This document shows positions 27,392 to 59,133 of a stretch of 64,000 nt of DNA, piece after piece (the first letter of the stretch is position 1; each line of letters opens with the position of its first letter). The translations under genes were made by a program, and so were the position numbers. The stretch is from assembly GCF_031326345.1 (NCBI RefSeq), contig NZ_CP133671.1, positions 3,720,001 through 3,784,000 on the forward strand, read 5' to 3'. This DNA is from Aureispira sp. CCB-E (GTDB taxonomy: Bacteria > Bacteroidota > Bacteroidia > Chitinophagales > Saprospiraceae). Under the pieces are notes generated by a model. It saw only the letters and a list, made by a program, of their open reading frames with translations, searched no databases and was not told where the DNA came from.

Positions 27392-27467
27392 TTTGATTTT
27401 ATAGGTAAATGGTTAGATAAAAATAGCTCTAAAATATAGACTCATTTTTGATACTAACCAAAGAACA

Positions 27468-27504
27468 AAAAGGAAATCTTAGCTTGCTAAGGTTTCCTTT
27501 TTTT
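27468..27504 (+). terminator. Rho-independent terminator
   Basis: A 16 bp stem, AAAAGGAAATCTTAGC with GCTAAGGTTTCCTTTT (one G-T pair), a two-base loop as drawn and a T run. It ends the first FKBP gene. The rest of 27392-27816 is AT-rich with nothing recognised. Confidence 0.85.
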
Positions 27505-27816
27505 GATCTCTTTAGAGAACCCTTCCATTTATTTGATAATAATAAAGTAATTGAGGTTTTTTTTTCTAAAATTTAATTGCTATAAACTGTAAACTTCTGA
27601 ATAGGAACTAATCTGCTGTGTATGAGCATCTATAGGCTAGATCAATATACGTTTTGGTAATAATTTAGTGGGGAGCAGTTGTAAGAAATGGATAAAAATG
27701 GTGATATATAAAAAAAAATAATTCGGAAATTGATAAGTAGTTATTTTCATAAGCTAAAAACGGTTTTAGATTATAACTATTCATAATATATTATCAAACC
27801 AAATTAAAACCAAATT

Positions 27817-29076
27817 ATGCATTTTAAACAAATCATTGCCCCTTTGGCAATCTTTAGCGCCATGTCTTTTTCAGGCTATTCCCAAAATGTATTTCCTTCA
27901 AATGGACATGCTGGTATAGGAACAACTACTCCTAGCAGTCACTTAGAAATCAACGAACGAAGCAATCAAGCCGTGCAAATAATGTTGAGGAACACGAGTG
28001 CTTCTAATGGGGGATTCTTTATAGAGTTGCTGGATAATGACATCTCACTCAATCTGAAAGAAAAAGGTAACCTTCGATTTTTTACAAATGGCACGGAGTG
28101 GATGCGATTGAATGAGAAAGGCTTTGTAGGCATAGGAACCAATAGCCCAAACAATCCATTGAGTGTAGAAGGCAAAATAGAGTCTCTTAGAGGTGGTTTT
28201 GTATTTCCAGATGGAACGGTACAGACAACGGCAGCAGTTCACTCTAATATCTTTACTTCCTTGTATGCGACGGATTTTATTAAAGTAGGAAACAACTCTA
28301 TTTACATTGATGAAACGAACCTAGGAGGAGGGGCAACACCAGAGAATCACATTTATTCTTCGAATACTAGTGGCAATCTTTTTATCAACTGTGCTGATCC
28401 AAGTTTTGTAAATCCAGGAAGCCCAACAGCCAATACTATTTTTCATTTTAATGGTAATAAGGGAGGAGTAGGAATCGCAACAGATGTATTGGATCAATAT
28501 GTGAAACTTCATGTCGCAGATGGATTTGCTTTGTTTGATGGAGATCAAGCCTCTGTACTTTTTGACAAGCATTCTTCTTCGGTATATGGTCAATATGGGA
28601 TTGAGTATCTTTCAACCAACGAGACGGGATCTTTAGGAGGGTTAAATTTTTGGAAACCCTTTGGTTCAAATGCTGGTCTAAAGAACTATCAGATGTTTAT
28701 TAGTGATGGAGGACAAGTAGGGATTGGTGTCAATCCGTCTGAATTTGTTCCTGGATATAAATTATTTGTAGATGATGGAATCTTGTGCGAACAAGTAAAA
28801 GTGGCATTAAGAAGCACAGCTGATTGGGCAGATTTTGTGTTTGACATAGATTATGAGTTAAAACCTTTAAAAGAGGTTAAGGAGTTTATTGAAGAGAACA
28901 AACATTTGCCAGACGTGCCAAGTGCTTCGGATGTTGTGAAAAATGGGATTAATATGGCTGAAATGGATGCCACCTTACTCCAAAAAATTGAGGAACTAAC
29001 GCTCTACACAATCAAACAACAAGAGTTGATTGAGGAAATGCAAAAAGAAATCGAACGTTTAAAATCTAAACAATAA
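27817..29076 (+). CDS. Exported surface protein with Bacteroidota tail/stalk C-terminus
   Basis: A 419-residue protein with a signal peptide ending GYSQ. The body contains short fibre-like units: NGHAGIGTTTPSSHLEI, EWMRLNEKGFVGIGTNSPNNPLSVEGKIE and GGFVFPDGTVQTTAA. These recur in long trimeric or tail-fibre-like proteins of the phylum. The last 80 residues (LKPLKEVKEFIEENKHLPDVPSASDV and MDATLLQKIEELTLYTIKQQELIEE) are a conserved C-terminal block ending in a coiled coil, reminiscent of intramolecular chaperone domains of tail fibres. No T9SS domain is visible. It precedes the next gene, a T9SS protein, by only four bases, so the two are surely co-expressed and may act together on the surface. 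Confidence 0.8.
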   Translation: MHFKQIIAPLAIFSAMSFSGYSQNVFPSNGHAGIGTTTPSSHLEINERSNQAVQIMLRNTSASNGGFFIELLDNDISLNLKEKGNLRFFTNGTEWMRLNEKGFVGIGTNSPNNPLSVEGKIESLRGGFVFPDGTVQTTAAVHSNIFTSLYATDFIKVGNNSIYIDETNLGGGATPENHIYSSNTSGNLFINCADPSFVNPGSPTANTIFHFNGNKGGVGIATDVLDQYVKLHVADGFALFDGDQASVLFDKHSSSVYGQYGIEYLSTNETGSLGGLNFWKPFGSNAGLKNYQMFISDGGQVGIGVNPSEFVPGYKLFVDDGILCEQVKVALRSTADWADFVFDIDYELKPLKEVKEFIEENKHLPDVPSASDVVKNGINMAEMDATLLQKIEELTLYTIKQQELIEEMQKEIERLKSKQ

Positions 29077-29080
29077 ACCA

Positions 29081-32000
29081 ATGGACATATTAAAAAAAGC
29101 TGTCTTGCTTCTATGCTGTGTCACTCCATGGTTTGCTTCGGCACAGGTTGTCTCAGTAGATGATATGAGAACCAAGACGTATTTTGAAATTGTAGAAGAG
29201 AAAGAGCGATATTTTGCAGGACTACCACCTAGACAATTAGAGGGTGAGGGGAGTGAGTACAATCGATTTCAACGATGGAAAGAAAAATGGGAACCTAGAG
29301 TGGCAACACACGGTAGTTTTAGGCAATATTTTGAATATGAGAAAAAAATGTTCCAAACGAATCCCAATTGTAATCCCAATGTCATTAACTCCAACCCTTG
29401 GTTAGAAATTGGACCAACCGAACAACCTGTAGGTCCCTTTGAAGATCCCTCTAATGGAGGAACAGCGGATGGAATTGGACCAACCGAACAATTGATTTTT
29501 GCGCCTTCTAATCCACTAGTAATGTTAGTGGCTTCACTTTCTGGAGGTTTGTTTTACTCTACCAATGGTGGAAATGATTGGTTGCAATCGGGAAGTGACA
29601 AGTGGCCACAACCAGGGTGTAGTTCTGCGGATATTCATCCTTCTAATCCCAATATTTGGTTGGCGACTTCTGTCGATAATAATAACGGAGAAGGGGGAGT
29701 AATAGGATATACAGGGGGAATTTATCGAACAGTAGATCAAGGAGCCACTTGGGAAAGAATAGGAAGTCAATTGCAGTTAAACTGGTTGTATAATGCTTTG
29801 TTTGGCGTGAAATTCGATCTAATTGACCCCAATATTGCTTACACCAATACACAGTATGGATTGTACAAAAGTACGAATGTTTTATCGGCAAGTGTGACTT
29901 GGACACGTTTGAATATTACTGCCCCAGTTTCTGTAACAAGTGCGTATCCTACGTTTGATTTTTCAGGTCTAGATCATCGAGTTCACGATTTAGAATTTAG
30001 ACCAATCAATCCCTCTAGTCCAGGAAGTTCTATACAGGATTTATATGCTAGTGTGCGTTTTTATGGAACAAAAACAGTTAGCGGAGAGCTAATAAAAAAA
30101 TATGTTTGGAGGCTAATGAAATCTAATGATGGTGGAGCAACATGGTCTGAAGTCGTAACACCGTCTAGTATTGATAACCTAGTTCATTTAACGATTGAAA
30201 TGACGAAGGCAAATAGAGATATTGTGACACTTTTGTATGCGGGAGCGCCTCCTTATGGGATTCATAGATATAATGTTAATACAAATATTTGGACAACATT
30301 AACTCCAAGTTCAACTATTAATTTTGGTTCTGGGCATACCTTTGGAATTTCTCCTTTTGATGAAAACTTAATTTATTATTCTAATGGAGATCGTTACAAA
30401 GTATATGATAATGGAAGTGTTAGTACTTATACCTCTGGTAGTGCTAATAAATTCGAGTACCATGTAGACTTAGAGGATTTTGTCAGTCATCCAACCAATC
30501 CAAACGAAGTTTGGATGTGTAATCATGGTGGGGTCGCGAGGTCACTTAATAAAGGAGTGAATTGGGAAACCAAAACGGATGGGCTTGGAGTAGCAGAAAT
30601 AATGGATATGATGACTGCTCGAACCGATGCTTCTAAACTGGTTATTGCAACTTATCATGATGGTTCATCTATTACCACGACAGGGCATTACAATGGTTGG
30701 GATCCAGAGTGGCACCATGTTTATGGAGGCGATGGCGTAACACCTATGGTAGATCGAACAGATCCTAAGCACGTTTGGGTGAATACTCAAGGTGGTAAAC
30801 AGGCTTATTCAGATGATGGAGGTGCAGCAAATACGTTTAGTTATCAAGCAAGTGGTTCTGGCTGGACGGCCAGTATGGGACAGCATGCACATGATCCTAA
30901 GACGATTTTTTGGGCTTATCGAAATACTGTTTCAGGTATTTCAGGAGCCAATATCAGACGCTCATTTGATCATGGCGACACCTATCATCCTATTACAGAT
31001 TTTCACAGTCATCCAGATTTGGCAGGGATTACACCTGGGTGGCACGTTACAGAAATAGAAGAAGCACGAAGTAATGATAATTATCTGTATGTTACAATTT
31101 TAGAACAGCCAGCAAATAGTCCAAGTGTTTGGAGATTGTTTAGAACCAAACAAATAAACGAAGATGCTACTACTATTATTAATTCTTGGGAACAGCTTCC
31201 CATTCCTTTGGTCAATTCTTGGATTGCGGATATAGAAGTCGATCCCGAAAACCCTGAAATTGTCTATGTTGTATATACAACAGGGTTGAGTAGTGGTCCT
31301 GTTTTTAATAACAATGGTTGTGGTGAAAAGATTCTTTTTAAGATGGATTATACCAATCCTGCTTTAGTAAATTGTAGTACAGGTGCGAATTGTACCGATT
31401 ACACGTTTAATTTGCCGCCTACTAGTAGCCAAGGAAGCAACACATCTCATGAGGTGCTATCTATTGAGCAAGGCTCCAATGGAGGAATGTATTTTGCGAC
31501 TAGAGTGGGAGCTTTTTATATCAATAACAATTTGATTGCATCAGGAGATTATTGGCAACGATTTGGAACCAACCTTCCTTATGTTAGAGCCTCAGGTATG
31601 GAAATTGCCTATGATATTAATCGAATACGCATGAGTTTTGTAGGAAGAGGAGTATGGGAACATGAATTGCATTGTCCTGATGATTTAAGTTTTAATGAAA
31701 GTGGTGTATATACTTCTGATGAATATTTAGAGGCTATCTATCATATTAATTCTACGGCAGTCGTAAGCCCAACTCTAGATGTTCGTTATCGGGCAGGTTC
31801 TTTTGTGCATTTGAAGCCAGGTTTTAAAGCGAAACCAAATTCTGTTTTTCATGCATTTATTCATCGTTGTGACAAACCAGGAAATAGCTTTAAACGACTA
31901 GACAACTCAAATGGAGCGAGTCCCCAAGAAGCACTTGAAATCAAAGAATCAGCAGATTTAGGTATCAAGACATATCCTAATCCTAGTGACGGTCATTTTA

Positions 32001-32200
32001 CCGTAGGGGTAGATCTTGATGATATAGATGAATATTACTCTTTGCAAGTCATTGATTTAACAGGAAAAGTGATTTTTGAATCGTTGAAAAATTCTACAGA
32101 GAAAGTCGATATTAATCTAAGTGACCAACCGAATGGAATGTATATTATTCTATTTAAGTCTGGAGATAATCTTCTTTATAATAAAGTTATCAAGGAATAA
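29081..32200 (+). CDS. Large secreted BNR/sortilin-like propeller protein with T9SS sorting domain
   Basis: A 1039-residue exported protein; the signal peptide ends ASAQ near residue 22. From about residue 130 to 860 it has BNR or VPS10/sortilin-type propeller blades, seen as Asp-box-like turns: SLSGGLFYSTNGGNDWLQSG, GIYRTVDQGATWERIG, RLMKSNDGGATWSEV and NIRRSFDHGDTYHPI. A region with VVSPTLDVRYRAGSFVHLKPGFKAKPNSVFHAFI resembles the module placed before sorting domains in this phylum. The final 75 residues (IKTYPNPSDGHFTVGVD to IIKE) form a type A T9SS sorting domain. The motif IGPTEQ occurs twice near residues 111 and 131. The ligand or enzymatic activity, if any, is unknown. Confidence 0.88.
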   Translation: MDILKKAVLLLCCVTPWFASAQVVSVDDMRTKTYFEIVEEKERYFAGLPPRQLEGEGSEYNRFQRWKEKWEPRVATHGSFRQYFEYEKKMFQTNPNCNPNVINSNPWLEIGPTEQPVGPFEDPSNGGTADGIGPTEQLIFAPSNPLVMLVASLSGGLFYSTNGGNDWLQSGSDKWPQPGCSSADIHPSNPNIWLATSVDNNNGEGGVIGYTGGIYRTVDQGATWERIGSQLQLNWLYNALFGVKFDLIDPNIAYTNTQYGLYKSTNVLSASVTWTRLNITAPVSVTSAYPTFDFSGLDHRVHDLEFRPINPSSPGSSIQDLYASVRFYGTKTVSGELIKKYVWRLMKSNDGGATWSEVVTPSSIDNLVHLTIEMTKANRDIVTLLYAGAPPYGIHRYNVNTNIWTTLTPSSTINFGSGHTFGISPFDENLIYYSNGDRYKVYDNGSVSTYTSGSANKFEYHVDLEDFVSHPTNPNEVWMCNHGGVARSLNKGVNWETKTDGLGVAEIMDMMTARTDASKLVIATYHDGSSITTTGHYNGWDPEWHHVYGGDGVTPMVDRTDPKHVWVNTQGGKQAYSDDGGAANTFSYQASGSGWTASMGQHAHDPKTIFWAYRNTVSGISGANIRRSFDHGDTYHPITDFHSHPDLAGITPGWHVTEIEEARSNDNYLYVTILEQPANSPSVWRLFRTKQINEDATTIINSWEQLPIPLVNSWIADIEVDPENPEIVYVVYTTGLSSGPVFNNNGCGEKILFKMDYTNPALVNCSTGANCTDYTFNLPPTSSQGSNTSHEVLSIEQGSNGGMYFATRVGAFYINNNLIASGDYWQRFGTNLPYVRASGMEIAYDINRIRMSFVGRGVWEHELHCPDDLSFNESGVYTSDEYLEAIYHINSTAVVSPTLDVRYRAGSFVHLKPGFKAKPNSVFHAFIHRCDKPGNSFKRLDNSNGASPQEALEIKESADLGIKTYPNPSDGHFTVGVDLDDIDEYYSLQVIDLTGKVIFESLKNSTEKVDINLSDQPNGMYIILFKSGDNLLYNKVIKE

Positions 32201-32285
32201 AATTTTTTCTAAATGGAATGTGATAAGAAGTCCTAAAAACTTTGGTTGCAATACATTTAGAAGAAGTGTTAACATTTATTTAAAT

Positions 32286-32319
32286 AGAGCAAAGCAGTCC
32301 TGTTTTGCTCTGTTTTTTT
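32286..32319 (+). terminator. Rho-independent terminator
   Basis: AGAGCAAAGCAG pairs with CTGTTTTGCTCT (one G-T pair) and is followed by a seven-T run. It closes the two-gene surface-protein operon. Confidence 0.85.
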
Positions 32320-32454
32320 GTCTATTACCAGACAATTTCAAAGATAGATGGCATTGTTTTCGTTAGTTGTGTTACGAATATGTATTTTTATCCTCTGAAA
32401 AATAGTAGAGGAATTACCAATTATCCTATTAATTATTAAAACTTAACAATAGTA

Positions 32455-33807
32455 ATGATTATGAAAACATCATACTGGATGGTATGCTTTTCAGCGTTCT
32501 TGTTTTTGACAACAGGTTTATTTGCACAGGAAGCTCCTAAAGAAAATAAAAAAGAAGCCGTAGAAAATCGTAGTTATGCTTATGGAGCTATGATTTCTAA
32601 AGGTATAACTAGAATGGGCTTGAGCGAAGCAGAAAAAAATCCAGATAAATTTATTGAAGGAATAAAAGAAGGAACGAAAGGTAATAAAGAAGCTTTTCAA
32701 AAGGCACAAAGTGTCTTACAATCAAGGATGCAAACGAAAACAGTATCTGCTGATGACAAAGCAGCTGGAGAGATTGCCTTTAATTTGGGATTAAGTGCTA
32801 TCGGAGGTTTGGCTACTGAAGTAGACATTCCTCTATCTGATTTTGATTTTAAAGTTATGAAAAAAGCATTTGTAGCAGCAGAGGCAGGTGAAACTTTAAA
32901 AATGAGTGAAGAAGAAATGAATGCTGTATTGCAAGCCTATTTTGAGCCTAAAAACAAGGAATATCAAACCAAATTAAAAGCTAAAAAAGAAGCTGAGGCT
33001 GCCGAGAATATTGAGGCTGGTAAGAAATTTATGGAAGAAAATGCCAAAAAAGAAGGGGTTATTACAATGGCAAATGGTATGCAGTATGAAGTTATCAAAC
33101 CAGCAACAGGACCTAAACCCAAAGCGACTGATAAAGTAAAGACACATTATCACGGAACTTTGATTGATGGAAGTGTTTTTGATAGTTCTGTAGATCGTGG
33201 CGAACCAATAGAATTTCCGTTAAGTGGTGTGATAAAAGGTTGGCAAGAAGGCATTCCGTTGATGTCTGTAGGAGCCAAATATCGTTTTTACATTCCTCAA
33301 GAATTGGCATATGGCTTACAATCTCCGTCTCCAAAAATTCCAGCAGGTGCCACCTTGATTTTTGAAGTGGAATTATTAGATATTACAGTAGATCCTGCCA
33401 AAGCAGCACTTGAGAAAAATTTAGCAGAAGGAAAAGCGTTCTTGGAAGAAAATGGAAAAAAAGAAGGAGTGGTTACCTTGCCAAGTGGTTTGCAGTATTT
33501 AGTAATTGTAAAAGGAGATGGTCCTAAGCCTAGCTTGACTGATCGTGTCAAAGTTCATTATCATGGAACCCTGATTGATGGAACTGTATTTGATAGTTCT
33601 GTAGATCGTGGTACGCCAGCAGTTTTTGGTGTTAATCAGGTGATTAGAGGTTGGCAAGAAGGCATTCCATTGATGTCTCCTGGAGCAAAGTACCGTTTGT
33701 TTATCCCTGCTAATTTAGCATATGGCAATCAAGGTGCAGGGGCAAAGATAAAGGGTGGTTCTACTCTGATTTTTGACGTAGAATTATTTGAGATTAATCC
33801 TAAGTAA
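32455..33807 (+). CDS. Double-FKBP prolyl isomerase (cluster member 2)
   Basis: A 450-residue exported protein; an ATG at 32461 is an equally good start. The signal peptide ends GLFAQ, with no lipobox. An FKBP N-terminal domain (about 35-190, [18 protein letters not shown]) is followed by two FKBP domains at about 205-312 and 325-450. Both keep [19 protein letters not shown] and [10 protein letters not shown], so both look active. They differ in the flap: [11 protein letters not shown] in the first and [11 protein letters not shown] in the second. A tandem FKBP on one dimerisation domain is unusual beside single-domain FkpA. It should act in the periplasm on exported proteins. Confidence 0.92.
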
Positions 33808-33827
33808 ATCTTTTTACATAGTTAACA

Positions 33828-33867
33828 TTGCCAATCGAACTATTTAGGTTCGGTTGGTAATTTTTTT
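33828..33867 (+). terminator. Rho-independent terminator
   Basis: TTGCCAATCGAAC pairs with GTTCGGTTGGTAA (two G-T pairs) around a seven-base loop and is followed by a T run. It ends the double-FKBP gene. The TTG at 33854, a conceivable upstream start for the next gene, lies inside its right arm. Confidence 0.8.
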
Positions 33868-33913
33868 GGCAGTGTTCGTTGTAAAAAAAGGAAATAATAG
33901 AAATAAAATTATT

Positions 33914-34399
33914 ATGAATAAAGTATTGGTAGTTGGTGTTGTCGTTGTTTTGATTGTCATTGTTGGTATGTGGATGTCGAAAAGTATGCAACGCCAAAAA
34001 GAGGCTGCGGCGAAGGCAATTGTTGACGGACAACAGTTTTTGAAAAAAAATGCTCAAAGGGAGAATGTGGTGACAACTGCTTCTGGACTGCAATATGAAG
34101 TGCTTGTAGAGGGGAGTGGTGATCAACCTGTGTTGTCTTCAAAAGTGAAAACTCATTATCATGGAACCTTAATTGATGGAACTGTATTCGATAGTTCTGT
34201 AGAGCGAGGCGAACCAATAGAGTTTCCATTAAATGGTGTGATCAAAGGCTGGCAAGAAGGAATTCCGTTGATGTCTTCGGGGGCAAAATACCGTTTTTAC
34301 ATTCCACAAGAATTAGCTTATGGAATGCGTTCTCCTTCGCCTGCTATTCCTCCTGGTTCTACACTCATTTTTGAAGTAGAGCTACTTAGTTTTAGATAA
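33914..34399 (+). CDS. Membrane-anchored single-domain FKBP (cluster member 3)
   Basis: From the ATG at 33914 the protein has 161 residues. The start at TTG 33854 was rejected because it falls in a terminator stem. Residues 3-20 (KVLVVGVVVVLIVIVGMW) are an uncleaved membrane anchor followed by a basic helix. A single FKBP domain (about 50-161) with [25 protein letters not shown] and [13 protein letters not shown] is complete. The dimerisation domain of its neighbours is missing. It probably works as a monomer tethered to the inner membrane, facing the periplasm. It is closely similar to the first FKBP domain of member 2, so a partial duplication is likely. Confidence 0.9.
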   Translation: MNKVLVVGVVVVLIVIVGMWMSKSMQRQKEAAAKAIVDGQQFLKKNAQRENVVTTASGLQYEVLVEGSGDQPVLSSKVKTHYHGTLIDGTVFDSSVERGEPIEFPLNGVIKGWQEGIPLMSSGAKYRFYIPQELAYGMRSPSPAIPPGSTLIFEVELLSFR

Positions 34400-34508
34400 C
34401 CTCTAAACAACTAACGGAGTATTAAACAATAGAAACACTTATCAGAAAATAAGCAGCTAATTTATTATTGTATTAAAAAAGGCTGCCTAATAAAACAATA
34501 CACAGAAT

Positions 34509-36323
34509 ATGAAGAATAAATTGGGATGGATTGGCTTTTTTATCCTTGGTTTAGTGGGAAGTTTATTAGCCCAAGAACCGAAGGCGGATTCTACGAAACA
34601 AACAACTAAAAAGCCAAGTCCAGCAGTTCTTATCAAAGAATTTAGCTACTCTTATGGATATAGCTTTGCCAAAGATTTAAAAGAAAAATCAAGCTTTGAA
34701 GCGAATGAAATGGCAGCAAAGGAAGTGCTAAAAGGATTGAAAGACGGTTTGAAAGCAGATACTGCTAAGTTAGCAGAAACCAATCGCCACTTAGAGGAAC
34801 GATTAAACAGCGAAACACCCGCTAAAACAGAAGAAGAGGGAAAAAAAACGGCTTATCACTTAGGATATAATGCCATTGCGAATATGATGGTTATGTTAGA
34901 ACTACCTAGCTCAGATTTTCATTATGGCTGCATCAAAAAAGGGTACATGGATTTCACAAAGGGCAAGGATTCTAAGTTTACAGAAACGGAAAGGAATGAT
35001 AAGTTGAATGCTTATTTTCAAGAGAAACAAACTGCCATGCAAGAAAAGATGTTGGCAAAAAGAAAAGAAGAAGCGGCTCAAAATTTGGCATTGGGACAAA
35101 AGTTTTTGGAAGAAAATGCTAAAAAGGAAAATATTCAGACAACCGCTTCAGGCTTGCAATATCAAGTGATCAAAGAAGGTGAAGGAGAATACCCAACCTT
35201 AAAGAGTCAGGTTGTTACACATTATACAGGAACATTAATGGACGGACGAGTATTCGACAGTTCTATTGAAAGAGGTCAGCCTGCTGTATTCCCTCTAAAT
35301 GCTGTAATTCAAGGCTGGCAAGAAGGCATTCAATTGATGAAAAAAGGAAGCCGTTACCGCTTGTTTGTTCCTGCTGCTTTGGGCTATGGTGAAAATAGTC
35401 CTGCTTCTATACCTCCTAATTCTGTGTTGATTTTTGATGTTGAATTGATTGATATCAAAGAAGAAGACCCTGCAACCAGCAACGCCAAAAGTAAAATGAG
35501 TTACTCTTATGGTTACATGATTGGGAAAAGCCTTGAGAGAGTTAACTTTAGTGCAGACGAAAAAAGTCCCAATCAATTTGTGCAAGGTTTTGCCAAAGGA
35601 TTTGATGCAGCGCAACAAGATGTAGCCGTTGTAGAAAGTTTGTTGAAAGCAAGAATGGAAGCAGGAGAGCCAACCAAAGATGTAGAAGCGGCTAAGAAAA
35701 TTGCTTTTGGAATTGGTTTTTCTTCTGCGGCAGGAATTGCTACACAAATTGGAGCCATTTCTACGGAATTTGATTTTAATGCTGTAGGAGTAGGATACTC
35801 TACGGCACTAAAAGGAGAAGATTCTCAGTTTTCAGATGAAGAAATGAATGGCTTTTTGAAGACTTACTTTGAACCTAAGCAACAAGCGTTTAAAGAGCGT
35901 ATGGAAACAGAACAACAAGCCGAAGCGATGGCTAATATTGCTGCTGGTGAGAAATTTATGGCAGAAAATGCCAAAAAAGAGGGTGTTGTTCAGATGGAAA
36001 ATGGGATGCAGTATATGGTTTTAAAAGAAGGAGCAAAAGATGAGATTCGAGCTACTTTACAAGATAAAGTTACAACACATTATCATGGTACATTGATTGA
36101 CGGAACTGTATTTGACAGCTCTGTGGAGCGTGGCGAACCAGCTACTTTCCCATTAAATGGTGTTATAGAAGGTTGGCAAGCAGGAATTCCTTTGATGCCT
36201 GTAGGGGCAAAGTATCGATTTTTTATTCCAGCCAAATTAGCTTATGGCAATAGAGCGATGGGAGCAACCATAGGTCCTGGCTCAACTTTAATTTTCGACG
36301 TAGAGTTGATTAAAATAAACTAG
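34509..36323 (+). CDS. Two-unit FKBP prolyl isomerase (cluster member 4)
   Basis: A 604-residue exported protein with a signal peptide ending SLLAQ (residue 22). It is two complete FkpA-like units in tandem: N-domain 45-195, FKBP 205-315, N-domain 325-480, FKBP 495-604. The first FKBP has VVTHYTGTLMDGRVFDSSIERGQ, the second [11 protein letters not shown] with GVIEGWQAGIPLMP. Each N-domain starts with a SYSYGYS or SYSYGYMIGKSL signature. Since FkpA-type N-domains dimerise, this protein could fold as a covalent dimer. Family length is usually about 250-300 residues, so this is an internal duplication. Role as for the neighbours: periplasmic prolyl isomerase and chaperone. Confidence 0.92.
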   Translation: MKNKLGWIGFFILGLVGSLLAQEPKADSTKQTTKKPSPAVLIKEFSYSYGYSFAKDLKEKSSFEANEMAAKEVLKGLKDGLKADTAKLAETNRHLEERLNSETPAKTEEEGKKTAYHLGYNAIANMMVMLELPSSDFHYGCIKKGYMDFTKGKDSKFTETERNDKLNAYFQEKQTAMQEKMLAKRKEEAAQNLALGQKFLEENAKKENIQTTASGLQYQVIKEGEGEYPTLKSQVVTHYTGTLMDGRVFDSSIERGQPAVFPLNAVIQGWQEGIQLMKKGSRYRLFVPAALGYGENSPASIPPNSVLIFDVELIDIKEEDPATSNAKSKMSYSYGYMIGKSLERVNFSADEKSPNQFVQGFAKGFDAAQQDVAVVESLLKARMEAGEPTKDVEAAKKIAFGIGFSSAAGIATQIGAISTEFDFNAVGVGYSTALKGEDSQFSDEEMNGFLKTYFEPKQQAFKERMETEQQAEAMANIAAGEKFMAENAKKEGVVQMENGMQYMVLKEGAKDEIRATLQDKVTTHYHGTLIDGTVFDSSVERGEPATFPLNGVIEGWQAGIPLMPVGAKYRFFIPAKLAYGNRAMGATIGPGSTLIFDVELIKIN

Positions 36324-36382
36324 TTTATTCTAATGTCTAAGCGGCATTTTATACTTATTGGCGACAGTTCAGAGGCTATATT

Positions 36383-36412
36383 TTTGATTATAAATTAATA
36401 TTTTTACCTTTG
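36383..36412 (+). promoter_or_regulatory. Promoter of cluster member 5
   Basis: TTTG (36383-36386), an 18 bp spacer and TACCTTTG (36405-36412). Transcription would start near 36419, 40 bases before the ATG. The fifth FKBP gene therefore has its own promoter. Confidence 0.7.
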
Positions 36413-36458
36413 TGACTTGTAGATATTACAAATTATAAATTTTAAAAAAAAGACAATA

Positions 36459-37049
36459 ATGAGAGAGCAAAGTTATAGTTTAGGAATTTTGTTGGGAAAT
36501 AATTTAGTAGGGCAAGTAGATGTGGAAGGTTTGGATTTTGATGCATTGGGTAAAGGTCTTGTGGATGTATTGAAAGGTGGAGAGTTGGAAATGACAGAGG
36601 AAGAAGCAAACTATACAGCTCAAATGTTTCTACAAGAGTCAGCTGCTAAAATGGCTATGAAAGCTGGTGAAGAAGAGGCTAATTTTATGGCTGAAAATGG
36701 TGCTCGTGAAGGTGTTGTTACAACTGCTTCGGGCTTACAATATGAGATTTTGACGGAAGGCGATGGTGCTATCCCTAAAATTCACGAAAAAGTAGTTGCT
36801 CACTACGAAGGTAAATTGTTGACAGGTAAAATCTTTGATTCTTCTTACAAAAGAGGACAACCAGCTACTTTCCCTGTTAACGGTTTAATCAAAGGATGGC
36901 AAGAAGCTTTACAAATTATGCCTGTTGGTTCTAAATGGAGATTGTACATTCCTTCTAACCTAGGTTATGGGGCAAGAGGAGCAGGAAATGATATTCCTGG
37001 AAATGCTACTTTGATTTTTGATTTGGAGTTATTGCAAATTACACGCTAA
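36459..37049 (+). CDS. Cytoplasmic FKBP-type prolyl isomerase (cluster member 5)
   Basis: A 196-residue FKBP with no signal sequence, so likely cytoplasmic. It has a short dimerisation domain (1-65, REQSYSLGILLGNNLV) and one FKBP domain (about 85-196). The active-site region is VAHYEGKLLTGKIFDSSYKRG and GLIKGWQEALQIMPVGSKWRLYIP, which differs from the [10 protein letters not shown] form shared by the other four, so it is the most distant member. The layout is like E. coli FklB or SlyD-independent FKBP22. It has its own promoter and terminator. Confidence 0.93.
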   Translation: MREQSYSLGILLGNNLVGQVDVEGLDFDALGKGLVDVLKGGELEMTEEEANYTAQMFLQESAAKMAMKAGEEEANFMAENGAREGVVTTASGLQYEILTEGDGAIPKIHEKVVAHYEGKLLTGKIFDSSYKRGQPATFPVNGLIKGWQEALQIMPVGSKWRLYIPSNLGYGARGAGNDIPGNATLIFDLELLQITR

Positions 37050-51833: not shown

Positions 51834-52015
51834 AAAGTGAGAATAAACGATTTATTAGGTTTGTTTAAATAATATGATTGGCTCATAAAGTACTATAACT
51901 AGCAGATAACCAAAAGTTAAATCAAGTATTAAAGTCCCTATAATACTGAGAATTACTTATAGAGTTTGTTAGGGGTAATAAATTCTAATTATATTAATTT
52001 CGGGATGTAAAAACA

Positions 52016-52046
52016 AAAACTAGCACTGGTGTGGTGCTAGTTTTTT
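52016..52046 (-). terminator. Rho-independent terminator
   Basis: AAAACTAGCAC faces GTGCTAGTTTT across a short loop. Read on the reverse strand it is followed by a T-rich tail, so it ends the operon whose last stop is at 52061. Confidence 0.8.
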
Positions 52047-52060
52047 ATTTTTCAACATTC

Positions 52061-52813
52061 TTAGGGCTCGATTTGAGCCTTTAAACGTTCGATTTCTGCT
52101 CTTAATGCTTTGAGTTCTGCTAAAACAGCTACGGTGCCATTTGCTGTCAAAAATTTGAGGTCGCCATTATTGCCGTCAATAGAAATTGTTGTTTTGTTTT
52201 GGCGATTTTTGATAATAAGTTCTCCATCTTGCTCCTTATTGCCCAAAATAAGAGCTCCTGAAAGCCCATTCATTCGAATTGTCTCGCTACCTTGAGCACC
52301 CAAATTTATTTGACCTAATAAGCCATCTAGTTGTACAAAATCTTCTCCAGTATTACTTTTAAGAAGAAGTTTACCAGGGCTTCTTTGCCGCCCTAAGCTA
52401 AGCGTTGCGGTATCACCATCGAGCTTAGACGTTATTTTTCCTGCGTGATTTCTAAGATAAAGGTTACCATCCTTGCCATTAGTGCCAAGTGTTAGGTTGC
52501 CATATTGCCCATCTAAATGGATGGTTGTCTTTCCTGCGCTATTTTTAATATATAAATCACCATCATTTTTACCCTCTGCATCTCCCAAAACCAAGGAGGC
52601 ATTATCTCCATTAAATATTATAGTGTCTTTTCCCAAGACGTTTTTAATATTCATGCTTCTTTGTTTGGGATTAATTTCTACAAAGATTTTATTTGTTGTT
52701 TTATTCTTAAATTGGTTGTTCTCATTGTTGATTTCCAACTGTAAGCCTGTCACTTTGGTATTGTCGCCAAGGATTTCTATTGTTGAGTTATCTAATTTTA
52801 TATCGCTATTCAT
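52061..52813 (-). CDS. Beta-repeat protein with C-terminal coiled coil
   Basis: A 250-residue protein without signal peptide. Residues 60-225 consist of five to six repeats of about 28-32 residues, each with a strand pattern like LYIKNSAGKTTIHLDGQYGNLTLG: NLYLRNHAGKITSKLDG, KLLLKSNTGEDFVQLDG, ELIIKNRQNKTTISIDG. The regular alternation suggests a beta-helix or fibre. The end (VLAELKALRAEIERLKAQIE) is a coiled coil that could trimerise it, as in tail fibres. I know no family name for it. It is the last gene of the reverse-strand operon and probably acts with its neighbours, outside the cytoplasm only if a non-classical export route exists. Confidence 0.75.
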   Translation of the reverse strand: MNSDIKLDNSTIEILGDNTKVTGLQLEINNENNQFKNKTTNKIFVEINPKQRSMNIKNVLGKDTIIFNGDNASLVLGDAEGKNDGDLYIKNSAGKTTIHLDGQYGNLTLGTNGKDGNLYLRNHAGKITSKLDGDTATLSLGRQRSPGKLLLKSNTGEDFVQLDGLLGQINLGAQGSETIRMNGLSGALILGNKEQDGELIIKNRQNKTTISIDGNNGDLKFLTANGTVAVLAELKALRAEIERLKAQIEP

Positions 52814-52875
52814 AATAATTTAATTTTTTAATTTGAAGGTTAGGTTGGTAAGTAGTATTGGAGTTGGTCGGTTGA

Positions 52876-53868
52876 CTATTGTTGTAAAATACTAGCAGCT
52901 TTTCGAGTTTCACCAAGTGTCTTTAGGATATGTACTGCTTGGTGTTTTAAGAAAGAATTGTGACTGGCAGCAATTTTTAAAGCAAGCGTTTTAGCCTGTG
53001 TTTTTTTATTGTCATAAACACTAGCCCAAGCTTTTGCAAAAAGAATCATATTTTGATTTTTTTGCGTTGATGAAAATCTTCGTTCTAGTTTTTTGAGAGA
53101 AGAATGAATCAAAGCAGGTTTTTGATACCTAAGCCCTATATCAACCAAAGACGATTGTCCCAGTGTCTTCATAGTCACAGCTAATTCTGACCGCTTCCTA
53201 GAGTTAGCTAAAGTTTGAAAATAGCCCAAACTTTGTTGTAATTGTATGTTGTTCTTCGTATACCAAGACAAACTATATCGCTGCGCTACAAATTGCAAAT
53301 AAGTATTTTTAGGATAGCTCTTTAAAGCATCTCGTATCAATTGTCGTGTTTCAAAGTGAACGTCTGCACTAGATTGAGTCAACTTAACTTTTATCGGGAG
53401 TATTTTTCTCCAACCATAGCCTATAATAATTGCAGCTTCATACGTTCCATCATCCCAATCCATATATCCTTTGCGACGTAATTCTTGATAAAAAGAAATA
53501 TCCGTTAACAAAAGACTCAAGGCATGAATTGTCTGGTGTTCATTCTCCAAATTCTCGAAAGGACCTGCTGTGATTTTATTTTTTATAAAACGATGTTCTT
53601 TGATTAAATCAACAATGTTTTTTTCTTGATGTTTGAAAATCTGATAAGCTGTATTTTTCAAAATTTGCCTAAAAATATCAGGGTGAACCTTTAGATAATT
53701 ATCTGTAGCAGAGTAATAGCCGTAAACCTCTTGATGACCACCAGAAATAGTGACTAGTAGAGATATTGCCGATTCGATAGGATTCCAGTAATGAGGATTG
53801 TCGCCAACCATAAATTTGGAATTCCCTAAGATGGCAGATTGTATGTTAGAGTGATTCAAGGTAGCCAT
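52876..53868 (-). CDS. Helical protein of unknown function
   Basis: From the ATG at 53868 the protein has 330 residues; a start at 53904 would enlarge the overlap with the upstream gene from 23 to 59 bases. It has no signal peptide and is mostly helical, with TPR- or HEAT-like pairs in the second half (LQLQQSLGYFQTLANSRKRSELAVTMKTLG, LIHSSLKKLERRFSS, HQAVHILKTLGETRKAASILQ). The stretch TYEAAIIIGYGWRKILPIKVKLTQSSADVHFETRQLIRDALKSYPKN is a less regular middle region. I do not recognise the family. Its translation is coupled to the preceding gene by the overlap, so the two products are likely made together. Confidence 0.72.
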   Translation of the reverse strand: MATLNHSNIQSAILGNSKFMVGDNPHYWNPIESAISLLVTISGGHQEVYGYYSATDNYLKVHPDIFRQILKNTAYQIFKHQEKNIVDLIKEHRFIKNKITAGPFENLENEHQTIHALSLLLTDISFYQELRRKGYMDWDDGTYEAAIIIGYGWRKILPIKVKLTQSSADVHFETRQLIRDALKSYPKNTYLQFVAQRYSLSWYTKNNIQLQQSLGYFQTLANSRKRSELAVTMKTLGQSSLVDIGLRYQKPALIHSSLKKLERRFSSTQKNQNMILFAKAWASVYDNKKTQAKTLALKIAASHNSFLKHQAVHILKTLGETRKAASILQQ

Positions 53869-55864
53869 GTTTTTGTGTCCGTTCAATGTTAATAATCCAT
53901 TCATGTGAGGTGAAGCGGTTACGACCTTGCCCTCTTATTTTTAATCTGGTAGAACGATTATCGCTTCTAATTAAACTAAAGTGTCGAGGATCGCCTATGA
54001 TATAATCTTCGTTGAGTGCATCTAGATGTTTCGGTCCTTTCATAACAACGTTAATATTATCAATTGCTTCATTGCCCCAGTCGGTGCCATACCATTCAAC
54101 TCCACAATCCCTAATGACAAGCGGCATTCTATCTAAGACCCAAACTCGGTGTGTTGTATTTTTCTTAAATGTTTTGCCTGCACGAATATTGCCATTCCAC
54201 CAAGCAGACCACATGCCATTAACACCATAATATAAATGCCATTCATTGCCAAACGTACTGCCTTTGATATTGACTTTCATTTCTTCAAAAGTAACTTCAT
54301 ACTCCTGTAGTAAATGGAAACCTAATTCACTCCAACCGCATTCTAATATAGCATAATAGCCAACAGGAATATCAGTCATGCCAGATAGGTTAGCCTCTAC
54401 CTCAAAGTAAGCAGGTGCACCATCAGGACCATGGATTAAAGTGGCCTTTGGCTGAAAGTTTATAGGAGTATCAATAGGAGTAAAGCCCGTTATACTATGC
54501 CAATCTCTAAATCCTTTGTGTTTGCCGCCTTTAGAAGGGTTGTCGTATTGCGTTAAGCTTAAAAAATCGTCCAGCTGCTCCCCATCCTTAACAGTAATAT
54601 GTTGACAAAACTTTATATTAAAAACTAAAGAAGCTGTGGGGCTAGGGCGTTTGACAGGAGGATAAAATTTAAACTTGAGGGGATGTTTTTTTAGATTGGT
54701 AGCCCAACAATCTTTCGAGTCGCCTGTAACTCCTTTAGGAATGCCACCAAATTCGTGTTTCCATCTTGTTTTGGTGCCATTAGGAAAGCCGCCAGATAGA
54801 CCCATTCCAATGTAAGCTTGATTGACAGGAACAATAGCACCATTGTCACCAATATGACTAGCTGTAGTATGTTCTCGGATCATGGTGTGCATGGGATGAA
54901 TTTCTGTGCGAACAGGAGCGTGTCCTGTATCCCAAACATGCCGCCCCCAAAAGGTAATATATTCTCCCCAAAAAGGTCGCCATTGAACAGGAAAAGATCC
55001 CGTTTCTGATTCGTTGTGTATAAAAGGAACCATTTCGTTGCCTTGCCCTTTTGTTTTCATACCTTCACCCAGCAGATACATAAACTGAGGATCAGGAAAC
55101 AAGTCCCAATTCCAGTCGCGTGTTTCGTGACTAGTTGGGTTGTCGGTAGCTGTAACACGACTATATTCTTGAAAACCTGCTATTTGATGGCTCAATTCAT
55201 TGGAGACCTTGTGCCAATTGTCTCCATGAAAAAACGTTCTTCTTTGACTCGAACGTGGTTTATTGGAATGGTAGGTCTTTTTACTAAAAAAATTGCAATG
55301 TGTCTGTACCCATTCTCTAACCGAAGCCGTGTTGTTTTTAGCACCATCTTGCGAGGCATGGCGATTAAACGTTTCCCTTAGGCTAATCACTTCATTTCCG
55401 ATTTGATAAATGCTTGGTTCTAAAATTCTAGTACGGTGTTGTTTAATATCTAAGAGTCCTCTACCCATGCGGCTAAAGAAGTCACGGATATTAAGACGTC
55501 CTAGTTTGGGCTCAAATAGTTGAGGGGCATCTTCTGCCACAATTAAATCAAAAATGAGCTCGTAGTCAGACTCGTCTCTAGTAAAGGAAGCGGTTGCATC
55601 GTACATAGAAACCCGACCATCAAAGGTGTGCATGCCTAATTTGTCATCGCTACTTAAGGGATCTTCATCATATACTTCTAGAGTGATTTTGTGCTCAAAG
55701 GTATAAGAACGATTGATCGACCAAGTTTGACCATTGTCAAAATCACTATTTCGAAGGGTAACCCCTCGATGCCCATCCGCTTTTATTCTTAATTTGATTT
55801 CGTCGTCTCCAAGATCATCTTCATTTTCATAACACCGCATTCTTTTGATAATGATTGTATTCAT
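53846..55864 (-). CDS. Large C2-like protein with conserved DTGH...EIHP motif
   Basis: From the ATG at 55864 the protein has 672 residues and no signal peptide; the longer frame from 55912 would run into the stop of the small gene before it. Residues 1-110 form a C2-like beta-sandwich (VTLRNSDFDNGQTWSI, KITLEVYDEDPLSSDDKLGMHTFDG). The centre carries HVWDTGHAPVRTEIHPMH (309-326), a His/Asp/Glu cluster that could bind metal, beside a Trp-rich stretch. A second beta-sandwich region (about 490-600) is aromatic and ends in Trp-rich IRDCGVEWYGTDWGNEA. I remember the D-x-GH-P-EIHP pattern from other large uncharacterised proteins but cannot name them. Enzymatic activity is possible, not shown. Confidence 0.75.
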   Translation of the reverse strand: MNTIIIKRMRCYENEDDLGDDEIKLRIKADGHRGVTLRNSDFDNGQTWSINRSYTFEHKITLEVYDEDPLSSDDKLGMHTFDGRVSMYDATASFTRDESDYELIFDLIVAEDAPQLFEPKLGRLNIRDFFSRMGRGLLDIKQHRTRILEPSIYQIGNEVISLRETFNRHASQDGAKNNTASVREWVQTHCNFFSKKTYHSNKPRSSQRRTFFHGDNWHKVSNELSHQIAGFQEYSRVTATDNPTSHETRDWNWDLFPDPQFMYLLGEGMKTKGQGNEMVPFIHNESETGSFPVQWRPFWGEYITFWGRHVWDTGHAPVRTEIHPMHTMIREHTTASHIGDNGAIVPVNQAYIGMGLSGGFPNGTKTRWKHEFGGIPKGVTGDSKDCWATNLKKHPLKFKFYPPVKRPSPTASLVFNIKFCQHITVKDGEQLDDFLSLTQYDNPSKGGKHKGFRDWHSITGFTPIDTPINFQPKATLIHGPDGAPAYFEVEANLSGMTDIPVGYYAILECGWSELGFHLLQEYEVTFEEMKVNIKGSTFGNEWHLYYGVNGMWSAWWNGNIRAGKTFKKNTTHRVWVLDRMPLVIRDCGVEWYGTDWGNEAIDNINVVMKGPKHLDALNEDYIIGDPRHFSLIRSDNRSTRLKIRGQGRNRFTSHEWIINIERTQKHGYLESL

Positions 55865-55866
55865 AA

Positions 55867-56064
55867 TTAAGGTGTTTTGATGAAAAGTGAACCAATTGTA
55901 GACAATCCCCAAAAGAGTAGAGCAAAAGCAAAAAATTCAAAAGTGAAACTGCCCAACTTAACGAAGGTTTCGGTTAATAATAGAGCAATACTGAGCGGAA
56001 TTGCTTTGGTTAAAAGCAGCTTTTCGACTCCTACATTACGGAGGAGTAAAATCAATTCTTTCAT
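55867..56064 (-). CDS. Small two-helix membrane protein
   Basis: A 65-residue reading frame on the reverse strand, starting MKELILLLRNVGVEKLLLTK. It has two hydrophobic segments (about 21-34, 44-60) and stops two bases before the start of the C2-like gene, an arrangement typical of translational coupling. The opposite strand has a longer but lower-quality frame. Similar small holin-like or anchor proteins occur in other operons, but I cannot assign this one. It would be the first gene of the four-gene operon. Confidence 0.5.
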   Translation of the reverse strand: MKELILLLRNVGVEKLLLTKAIPLSIALLLTETFVKLGSFTFEFFAFALLFWGLSTIGSLFIKTP

Positions 56065-56198: not shown

Positions 56199-56230
56199 AA
56201 GAGAAATCCCGCTTTTTCGGGATTTCTCTT
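56199..56230 (-). terminator. Rho-independent terminator
   Basis: A perfect 13 bp stem, AAGAGAAATCCCG with CGGGATTTCTCTT, six-base loop. On the reverse strand it is followed by TTTTTATTTTTT. It ends the sensor kinase/response regulator operon and isolates the four-gene operon downstream. Confidence 0.92.
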
Positions 56231-56321: not shown

Positions 56322-56978
56322 CTAAAGCTCAATGATACCTTCCTTGATAGCATATTTGATTAAGTCGGCTTGATTCTGAAAATTGAGTTTTTTGAAAATG
56401 TTCTTTTTATGCGTTTCGACTGTTCTAGGACTTATAAACAAAGCCATGCCTATCTCTTTATAGCTTTGCCCATTGGCAAAACCTCGAACGACTTCAATTT
56501 CTCGTTCTGTTAAATTGGAATTAGTGATAAGTTTGGATTTTCCAGAGACTTGATTGGCAAAACTTTGATACACGATAGGAGCAATATCTTTTCCAAAATA
56601 ATGTTCTCCATTGGCAATACGCTCGATAGCTAGCAACAATTCTTCTTTCCGACATTCTTTGGGCAAGAAACCATGCACACCTACTTTTACAGCTTTTAAA
56701 ATTGTATTTTTATCTGTATTGGCGGTTAACATCAATATTCGTATATTGTTGTATTCTTCAATAATTTTTTTTGTAATTTCAATGCCATTAACAAGCGGCA
56801 AATTCATATCCAATAACAAGACATCAGGTTGTTTGTGGCGCAACAGTTCCCAGAGTTTTTGAGCTTCTAAGGCGGTACCAATTACTCGGATGGTTTTGTT
56901 CGTTAGTAGCATGGCACGAATACCGTCAATGACAATTTGGTGATCATCAACAATGATAATATGAATGGGACTTTTCAT
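56322..56978 (-). CDS. LuxR/NarL-type response regulator
   Basis: A 218-residue response regulator. The receiver domain (1-125) has the acidic pair in IIVDDHQ, the phosphorylated Asp in DVLLLDMNLPLVNG (about residue 57), the Thr in LMLTANTD and the Lys in FLPKECRKEE. The C-terminal LuxR-type helix-turn-helix is LTEREIEVVRGFANGQSYKEIGMALFISPRTVETHKKNIFKKL (about 148-190). It should bind DNA when phosphorylated by the kinase encoded one base upstream. The two are clearly a two-component pair. Its targets are unknown; the four-gene operon that follows is separated by a terminator. Confidence 0.95.
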   Translation of the reverse strand: MKSPIHIIIVDDHQIVIDGIRAMLLTNKTIRVIGTALEAQKLWELLRHKQPDVLLLDMNLPLVNGIEITKKIIEEYNNIRILMLTANTDKNTILKAVKVGVHGFLPKECRKEELLLAIERIANGEHYFGKDIAPIVYQSFANQVSGKSKLITNSNLTEREIEVVRGFANGQSYKEIGMALFISPRTVETHKKNIFKKLNFQNQADLIKYAIKEGIIEL

Positions 56979-56979
56979 T

Positions 56980-59133
56980 TTAAATATTTTTGGATGGAGT
57001 GGGAAGCGTAAAACTAAAGGTGCTGCCTAAGGAAGAAGTATCTTCTAACCATATATTTCCGCCTTGTTGCTCTACTAATTCCTTGCATAGTATAAGTCCT
57101 AAGCCTGTTCCTTTTCCTTCCACTTCATTTCGTTCGTTTTTGCTAGAATTGAGCATAAATAGTGTTGGAGCAATATGGGGTGGGATTCCTTTTCCTGTAT
57201 CAGTCACCGAAATAGTCAACATCGAATTATTGATGTTGGAAGAAACAGATATGTTCCCTCCATTAGGGGTAAACTTAATGGCATTGGCTATTAAATTCCT
57301 TAAAATGGTGTGCGTCATTTTTTGATCTGCCCAAGCAACAGTTTCTGTGGAGATGGTATTGGATAGTCCAATGTTCTTAATATTAGCGCTACTTTCTAAT
57401 AGGCTAAAAACATCGTCGGTAGTCTCAGTTAAAGTAATTTTCTGAGGCTGAAATTCTAGACGTCCTGTTTGAGAAATAGACCAATACAATAAGTTTTGAA
57501 GCAAATCGAAGAGATTGCTAGCAGAAGTATTGAGTTGTTTGATAAAATAATCTAAATCGTCTCGGCTGATGTCAAAAATGTCTTCGGATAGCGATTGAGT
57601 AATAGAACGAAACGCAGACAATGGATTTTTTAAGTCATGAGCAATAATACTAAATAACTTGTCTTTGGTGTTGTTTAATGTTTCCAATTCCAAATTGACT
57701 TTTGAACGCCATTTATTCAGACGATACAAAAATCCAACAATAAGAAGCATAACGATAATGATAATCACCATGAAGTAAAGACTTTGGTTGAGTCGTTCGT
57801 TTTTTAAATTCGAAATTTCTTGTTGTTGCTCTAATGACTTGATTCGTTGCTCTTTTAGTTGATCTTCGTATGTAAGTAAAAGTTTGTATACTTTTTGGTC
57901 TATATTTCGTTGGTGCAGTGTATCTATTAGGTCTGCATATTCTTGCGAATAAATTCTTGCATTGGCAAAATCTTTTTTTGACCAAGCCAATAACTGCCAA
58001 AGCTCTAAATTTTGCTTCATTCTATTGCTGATAGAAGCCTTATTGTTATAAAGTATTTGTTTGCTTTTGTTTAATAGCTTTTCAGCTTTTTCAAAATTAG
58101 ACTCTGTAATATAAACCCTTGCCAACTCTTGATAACTATTGACAATTCGACTGTTATAGGGAAGTTTTAAAAAATTAAAAAGAGAAATAGCCTGTAATAG
58201 GTATTCTTTTGCACGGGCATAATCGCCATTGATAGAGTGAATGATACCTATGGCTTCTAAAGATTGCATAATGAAGATACTATCTTTGTATATCTTGGCA
58301 TTTTTAAGTGCCAACTCATAGAAATAAAGGGCACTATCTTGTTTGGCGAGATCTCTATAGGTAGTTCCTAGGTTAAAGTATGTATTTCCTAATAAATTAT
58401 CTTGCTTGTTCTTTTTTTTTAGGGCAATACTTTTATTAAAATAGATCAAAGCTTGGTCAAATAGTTTGGCATTCAAATAATCCAAACCAACACTATTATA
58501 GCTTTTTCCTAACTGGTTAGAATGAGTTGCTTCTTGTATTTCTAATGCTTTTAAATCAAAAATAACCGCAGAATCGTGTTTCTCTTGTTCTGCGTAACTA
58601 GCAGCTATGTTAAAATAAGATTGTACAATCAGGTTGCTATCATTCCAAGAAATGCTATACGCTAGCATTTTTTGAAAAGCATTAACTGCTGCTGTAAAAT
58701 TACTTCCAAATCGATGAGCATGACCTACAAACGCAATCAGCTGTACTTGTATAGCAGGTACCCACGAAGATGTATCCCCTTCTAGAATATTTAACCCTCT
58801 TCGAGCCACATTGATGGTAGAGTCAGGAACATGGTACAGGTAGGCATATGCCAGTTTCATGATGTAGGTCGTTTTTATAGAGTCGTTTTCTGCCTGTTCG
58901 ATTTTTTGAGAAAGGCGGTTGATTAAGGCTTTGTCTACATGATTGTGTTGAGCCTCTGGTTTGTCCTTTTCTTGAGCAAAAGATTTTGGAACACTAAAAA
59001 CAAATAAGAGCACAAAGAATAAGACGTAGTTTCGGTAATTGCTCAAAGTGAGCTGAGACAAAGGGGATTTTGTTAATATTAGTTTGGGAAATGCCATTAC
59101 TAATATTAACACAAGAATTAATTGGTGGTGCAT
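56980..59133 (-). CDS. TPR-containing sensor histidine kinase
   Basis: A 717-residue kinase. A signal-like hydrophobic segment lies near residues 35-55 (NYVLFFVLLFVFSVPKSFAQ), so the true start may lie downstream of 59133, for example at 59097. Residues 90-370 are TPR repeats predicted to be periplasmic (ALIYFNKSIALKKKNKQDNLLGNTYFNLGTTY). A coiled-coil segment and a membrane helix (LYFMVIIIIVMLLIVGFLY) follow near 455. The HisKA helix has the phosphorylated His in FSIIAHDLKNPLSAFRS, and the ATPase domain has NLIANAIKFTPNGG, TDTGKGIPP and GKGTGLGLILCKELVEQQGGNI. It is the partner of the adjacent response regulator. The stimulus is unknown. Confidence 0.92.
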   Translation of the reverse strand: MHHQLILVLILVMAFPKLILTKSPLSQLTLSNYRNYVLFFVLLFVFSVPKSFAQEKDKPEAQHNHVDKALINRLSQKIEQAENDSIKTTYIMKLAYAYLYHVPDSTINVARRGLNILEGDTSSWVPAIQVQLIAFVGHAHRFGSNFTAAVNAFQKMLAYSISWNDSNLIVQSYFNIAASYAEQEKHDSAVIFDLKALEIQEATHSNQLGKSYNSVGLDYLNAKLFDQALIYFNKSIALKKKNKQDNLLGNTYFNLGTTYRDLAKQDSALYFYELALKNAKIYKDSIFIMQSLEAIGIIHSINGDYARAKEYLLQAISLFNFLKLPYNSRIVNSYQELARVYITESNFEKAEKLLNKSKQILYNNKASISNRMKQNLELWQLLAWSKKDFANARIYSQEYADLIDTLHQRNIDQKVYKLLLTYEDQLKEQRIKSLEQQQEISNLKNERLNQSLYFMVIIIIVMLLIVGFLYRLNKWRSKVNLELETLNNTKDKLFSIIAHDLKNPLSAFRSITQSLSEDIFDISRDDLDYFIKQLNTSASNLFDLLQNLLYWSISQTGRLEFQPQKITLTETTDDVFSLLESSANIKNIGLSNTISTETVAWADQKMTHTILRNLIANAIKFTPNGGNISVSSNINNSMLTISVTDTGKGIPPHIAPTLFMLNSSKNERNEVEGKGTGLGLILCKELVEQQGGNIWLEDTSSLGSTFSFTLPTPSKNI

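Follow-up and report, generated by a model that had tools for sequence, protein, structure and literature searches.

A four-gene cassette in Aureispira and a recurring small membrane protein suggest a possible module, simple and so far undescribed, for export or docking at the membrane

A set of four tightly packed genes in Aureispira sp. CCB-E is a real conserved unit, present in Aureispira and in flavobacteria, and judging from the sequences around it the cassette is probably mobile. Gene 1 encodes a small membrane protein (P0004) and genes 2–4 encode three larger proteins that lack signal peptides by hydropathy (P0003, P0002 and P0001). Numerous bacterial proteins that look extracellular carry no export signal, and P0004, which lies beside several unrelated signal-less proteins in Bacteroidota and Pseudomonadota, is a concrete and easily tested candidate for a route by which they leave the cell. 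The cassette also brings an EIHP core and further proteins, none of which matches a curated profile. Our tentative explanation, to which we give somewhat less than an even chance, is that the probably mobile cassette encodes an assembly of signal-less proteins along with a small membrane protein dedicated to it, which would serve as a holin-like exporter or in regulated release.

RESULTS

Architecture of the cassette

The window analysed here is a stretch of 64,000 nucleotides, positions 3,720,001–3,784,000 of a 7.3-Mb contig. The cassette lies on its minus strand at 52061–56064 (Table 1), with 2 bases between genes 1 and 2, a 23-base overlap of genes 2 and 3, and 62 bases between genes 3 and 4. 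An earlier note on this DNA had described this packing, with flanking terminators and products free of signal peptides. The spacing is confirmed, terminator-like hairpins were recovered on both sides, and the three larger proteins have no hydrophobic N-terminus in a hydropathy scan, which is a different measure from a signal-peptide predictor. The hairpin 5′ of the cassette is the end of the upstream unit; the segment 50000–58500 contains nine terminator-like sites compared with 4.9 (sd 2.3) in shuffled sequence. The genes directly 5′ of the cassette, read as a response regulator and a TPR histidine kinase, occupy the same position in the second Aureispira species and are possible regulators of the cassette. 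Elsewhere in the window (26447–37049), several consecutive genes read as peptidyl-prolyl isomerases of the FKBP type, and in some of them the domain occurs in two repeats.

Table 1. Features of the cassette and its flanks, in window coordinates
Feature	Position	Strand	Description
Gene 1, P0004	55867..56064	-	65-aa small membrane protein; 1–2 hydrophobic segments
Gene 2, P0003	53846..55864	-	672-aa signal-less protein; C2-like N-terminus, EIHP core, C-terminal sandwich
P0003 residues 1–103	55556..55864	-	C2-like domain; related to stand-alone ~111-aa plasmid proteins
P0003 residues 234–358	54791..55165	-	Conserved core; alignments, hhalign
P0003 residues 515–668	53861..54322	-	C-terminal C2-like sandwich; low-confidence model
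Gene 3, P0002	52876..53868	-	330-aa helical-looking protein
Gene 4, P0001	52061..52813	-	250-aa G-rich beta-repeat protein, coiled-coil-like tail
Hairpin 5′ of cassette	56199..56230	-	Terminator-like, 13 pairs; behind response regulator gene
Hairpin 3′ of cassette	52015..52045	both	Terminator-like
Response regulator	56322..56978	-	Name by reading the sequence, without family search
TPR histidine kinase	56980..59133	-	Name by reading the sequence, without family search

Conservation and distribution

The four-gene order is retained in all six genomes inspected, which represent the five species found with a full-length P0003: two Aureispira species, Algibacter, Aquimarina muelleri and a Flavobacteriales MAG. 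The nearest named record, Aureispira sp. CCB-QB1, belongs to the same species as the window and has a P0003 that is 99% identical. In the second Aureispira species (G740), synteny with the window covers the four genes and extends into both flanks, and identities for genes 1–4 are 73, 58, 53 and 45%. The Algibacter, A. muelleri and Flavobacteriales loci also have the four genes, tightly packed and in an identical order, set in flanks that by reading are unlike those of Aureispira and unlike one another. Because the flanks differ between lineages, we regard the cassette as real and probably mobile. Downstream of three cassette loci (L038–L040) are genes reading as a ParB-like protein, a C5 DNA methyltransferase, toxin–antitoxin pairs and a nuclease-type transposase.

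Full-length P0003 is rare. Within the genus Aureispira it occurs in three of nine genomes, counting the window's own. Among the 67 candidate stretches that a pattern scan of 84,980 species genomes returned, 18 are relatives, including four with the full-length protein (CCB-QB1, an uncultured Algibacter, A. muelleri and the Flavobacteriales MAG). In the family of Aquimarina the full-length protein is present in 2 of 397 genomes, both already among those found, and a third genome has the core only. A draw of 295 genomes from the class yielded full-length P0003 only in the window's own genome and core matches in 19 others, whereas the window's own genome was the sole match of the core profile in a phylum-wide draw of 395, indicating that the wider core family is thinly spread. 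Such rare and patchy occurrence is as expected for a horizontally moved cassette.

All four behave as real genes and are under purifying selection. Comparison of the two Aureispira species gives pN/pS values of 0.24, 0.38, 0.44 and 0.40 for genes 1–4, with synonymous sites near saturation; between Algibacter and Aquimarina, where synonymous sites are unsaturated, the values are 0.33, 0.13, 0.20 and 0.15. The earlier note had named a conserved gene order across genomes as support for a functional system, and the linkage found here, which extends to distant relatives, supports reading the genes as a functional unit.

The P0004 family and its neighbours

Members of the P0004 family are 61–71 residues long and have the motif [ED]-x-[FA]-x-K-x-x-S-F-x-x-E in common. 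The charged positions 32 (E or D), K36 and E43 are conserved in all nine aligned members. A 19-residue hydropathy peak above 1.6 is present in 9 of 11 members, the exceptions being those of Aquimarina and G1386. Few members have two such peaks.

A search with P0004 alone identified clear relatives in two genomes from another family of the same order (G110, E = 1.1e-13; G1386, E = 4.5e-20); three more lie on plasmids, one from Microvirga terrae and two from Ruegeria (E = 2e-8 to 9e-7). Clear hits were obtained in two genomes of each of four overlapping draws (295, 248, 121 and 130 genomes), counts that include the window's genome or others already known. Weak matches occurred in 12 genomes of the 295-genome draw (E = 3.4e-5 to 0.0093) and in two of the 248-genome draw (G1189 and G1187); the three inspected (G092, G217 and G061, all from the former draw) each lie inside or opposite another reading frame and were rejected.

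A large signal-less protein is encoded beside the P0004 relative, on the same strand, at all five loci, at distances of ~190 bases (G110), 12 bases (G1386) and 224, 36 and 35 bases (the three plasmids). Since the two Ruegeria loci are orthologous, these represent four independent pairings. The neighbours span 553 aa in G110, 1181 aa in G1386, 1028 aa in Microvirga, and 365 and 425 aa in Ruegeria. Of these, the one in Microvirga has above-cut-off matches to Vps10/BNR profiles and the one in G1386 a sub-cut-off match to BNR_2; those of G110 and Ruegeria have no Pfam match and are propeller-like by reading alone. In Ruegeria and G1386, the P0004 gene follows that of its partner. All 23 partner proteins scanned lack a hydrophobic N-terminus as measured by hydropathy (maximum 0.83).

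A further pairing was found with the P0003 profile. In G925, a P0004 relative heads a cluster in which it is followed by a 103-aa protein, a 485-aa core protein and a protein with an above-cut-off Pfam Crystall match. By eye, the 103-aa protein resembles the two ends of P0001. Searches starting from P0004 and from P0003 thus converge on the same pairing from opposite sides. The recurrence of P0004 beside other large signal-less proteins lends independent support to a dedicated delivery route, which the earlier note had raised as a possibility. Near the G925 cluster is also a 70-aa ORF (L062 4278–4490) with GG followed by a cysteine-containing stretch, as in a peptide that carries a leader.

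C2-like ends and the EIHP core of P0003

The N-terminus of P0003 matches the Pfam C2 profile (PF00168) with E = 0.12 and 13.1 bits, below the gathering cut-off of 22, and two of five orthologues also match under the cut-off (best E = 0.044). The same region matches a Synechococcus plasmid protein (31.5%, E = 1e-6), through which a C2-like protein on a Streptomyces plasmid was found. These stand-alone proteins of ~111 aa (L025 8001–8336 and L033 5986–6324, respectively) have no Pfam match. The predicted model of P0003 has a mean pLDDT of 47.3, and its comparison with PDB structures mainly covers residues 515–667, where the match is C2-like; the C-terminal sandwich may be a second C2-like domain. 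The N-terminal C2-like sandwich of the earlier note is a fair assignment, weak by profile and helped by the second match at the C-terminus, although that match comes from a low-confidence model.

In an eight-row alignment of the core, H246, D250, E285, D312, G314, H315, E321, I322, H323 and P324 are invariant; in a 17-row alignment, I322 is replaced by methionine in one row. A further alignment leaves out two of the 17 rows, L043 (a fragment) and L051, and does not include L031. The hhalign probabilities of the P0003 core are 97.9% against secreted-type relatives and 98.2% against the G925 relative. The EIHP core, a conserved domain that no curated profile matched, probably holds an active site, and our guess from its conserved residues is that it binds metal. 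A match of P0003 to an IS1249 transposase model (E = 0.0039) was set aside as probable chance.

P0002, P0001 and searches against known systems

P0002 has two conserved blocks, MDWDDGTYE.A..Y.WR and KLTQS..VHFE.R, and gave a single match in each of the five genomes searched. P0001 ranges from 250 to 364 aa depending on the species and has a conserved, coiled-coil-like tail (LAELxALRxEIxxLK). Several of its matches were set aside as probable chance: those to CE2_N (E = 0.0034), hemicentin (0.0041) and Cass2 (0.011), that of residues 209–240 to phrog_27317, a family of unknown function (5e-4), and that of an orthologue to a restriction-enzyme model (6e-4).

None of P0001–P0004 has a match above the curated cut-offs of Pfam or NCBIfam, searches of PDB sequences were empty or at chance level, and scans of phage and viral contigs found no relative. 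In agreement with the earlier note, the cassette could not be matched to any named system, and none of its genes is assignable to a well-understood family. No member of the P0004 family (0/9) matches a holin-named family in PHROGs or Pfam; the best PHROG match is to a nameless family, for one member (E = 0.018). Searches of Pfam, PHROGs and NCBIfam likewise gave no peptidoglycan hydrolase or spanin match for P0001–P0004. The definition of a type 10 secretion system includes endolysin and spanin genes in the unit; since the searches turned up neither an endolysin or spanin nor a recognisable holin, we do not assign the cassette to this class on its sequence matches.

DISCUSSION

A small membrane protein tied to unrelated signal-less proteins is best explained as performing a general service, either release or holding at the membrane. 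On the explanation that we tentatively prefer, P0004 would oligomerise in the inner membrane and let its folded partners out in a holin-like manner, or alternatively would fire under regulation and so release them. The exported set would comprise P0003 as a membrane-binding protein whose C2-like ends flank a core that probably binds metal, P0002 as a helical partner and P0001 as a beta-repeat/coiled-coil scaffold. Clostridial toxins with linked holins provide a known precedent for export (PMC9527704). Counting against an exporter are the lack of holin, peptidoglycan hydrolase and spanin matches, the two P0004 members that show no membrane-like hydropathy peak, and the position of P0004 behind its partner in Ruegeria and G1386; in what is a small sample, the independent P0004 pairings are also few, and the family is rare. 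The cargo may instead act inside the cell: P0004 would then be an anchor or receptor that holds a cytoplasmic P0003–P0002–P0001 assembly at the inner face of the membrane, where a lipid or small molecule would be the target of the P0003 core. We consider this arrangement possible, if on the unlikely side. The C2-like ends of P0003, both weak matches, suggest membrane affinity; the three conserved charged positions of P0004 could form a docking site; and no lysis genes were matched. However, partners as different as C2/EIHP, crystallin-like and BNR-type proteins are more in keeping with a generic route than with a specific dock. Export is placed slightly ahead of docking because the partners are so varied and because the homologues that the P0003 core has outside the cassette appear to be secreted.

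A broader proposal, which we regard as unlikely, is that P0004 is the founder of a cross-phylum class of minimal one-gene exporters or docks recruited by C2/EIHP proteins, a crystallin-like cluster and BNR-type proteins, and that the Aureispira cassette is one elaborated version of a distinct kind of secretion strategy, dispensing with Sec, an injection machine or a lysis cassette. We give little credence to a role in defence, toxin immunity or other antagonism within variable islands. The scattered distribution speaks for it, as do the genes beside the cassette in L038–L040 that read as a methyltransferase, toxin–antitoxin pairs and a nuclease, but the chromosomal neighbourhood is conserved in both Aureispira species, no nuclease, NTPase or toxin family scored above a cut-off, and PADLOC gave no match for the four window proteins (E ≤ 1). 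Among three L040 orthologues, PADLOC matched the repeat protein alone, with two weak hits (E = 6e-4 and 0.09). It is similarly improbable that a secretion machine with its genes elsewhere takes these products as cargo, with the P0004 linkage incidental. Signal-less proteins are typical cargo of type VI and extracellular contractile injection systems, and Aureispira is a predator that is said to employ such machines; against this, reading of the loci brought up no genes of that kind next to the cassette, and the P0004 linkage recurs with unrelated partners.

Comparison with known systems

Relatives of the P0003 core occur in unnamed, secreted-type proteins of ~540 aa from uncultured Bacteroidia. 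These have the core H-x-[TS]-x-D ... H-x-E-x-E ... W-D-x-G-H-x-P ... E-[IM]-H-P in common with P0003, as well as much of the region C-terminal to it. Unlike P0003, they lack the N-terminal C2-like domain and have a hydrophobic N-terminus in both proteins measured (hydropathy maxima of 1.88 and 1.96, compared with −0.55 for P0003) and in others by reading. In the neighbourhoods read, no partner genes for P0001, P0002 or P0004 were seen.

Plasmid-encoded beta-repeat proteins of Rhodobacteraceae SC52 (QIE43444), Hymenobacter and Acaryochloris have G-rich repeats resembling those of P0001 but a different C-terminal domain, and none of their records coincides with the three plasmids on which the P0004 search found a relative. 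On the SC52 plasmid, the beta-repeat protein is followed by metzincin-like and HEAT-like proteins (sub-cut-off Pfam matches), a loose parallel to P0003 and P0002; this row spans L026 7791–11035, and the metzincin-like protein carries HEVGHYLRLRH. In the Hymenobacter (L035 4983–6990) and Acaryochloris (L034 4998–8272) plasmids, the beta-repeat protein is followed by a protein that reads as a beta-propeller and has no Pfam match.

The nearest described arrangement is holin-linked release, exemplified by TcdE with the clostridial toxins and by type 10 secretion systems, in which a small membrane protein is encoded beside large folded signal-less proteins (PMC9527704, PMC12150058, PMC13284979). 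P0004 and its large signal-less neighbours present the same gene pairing, differing in that P0004, here a putative exporter, matches no holin profile and that no endolysin or spanin match accompanies it. By our preferred explanation, the cassette would be a variation on holin-linked release built of proteins outside the curated profiles; should P0004 export its partners and have no relation to holins, it would represent a separate kind.
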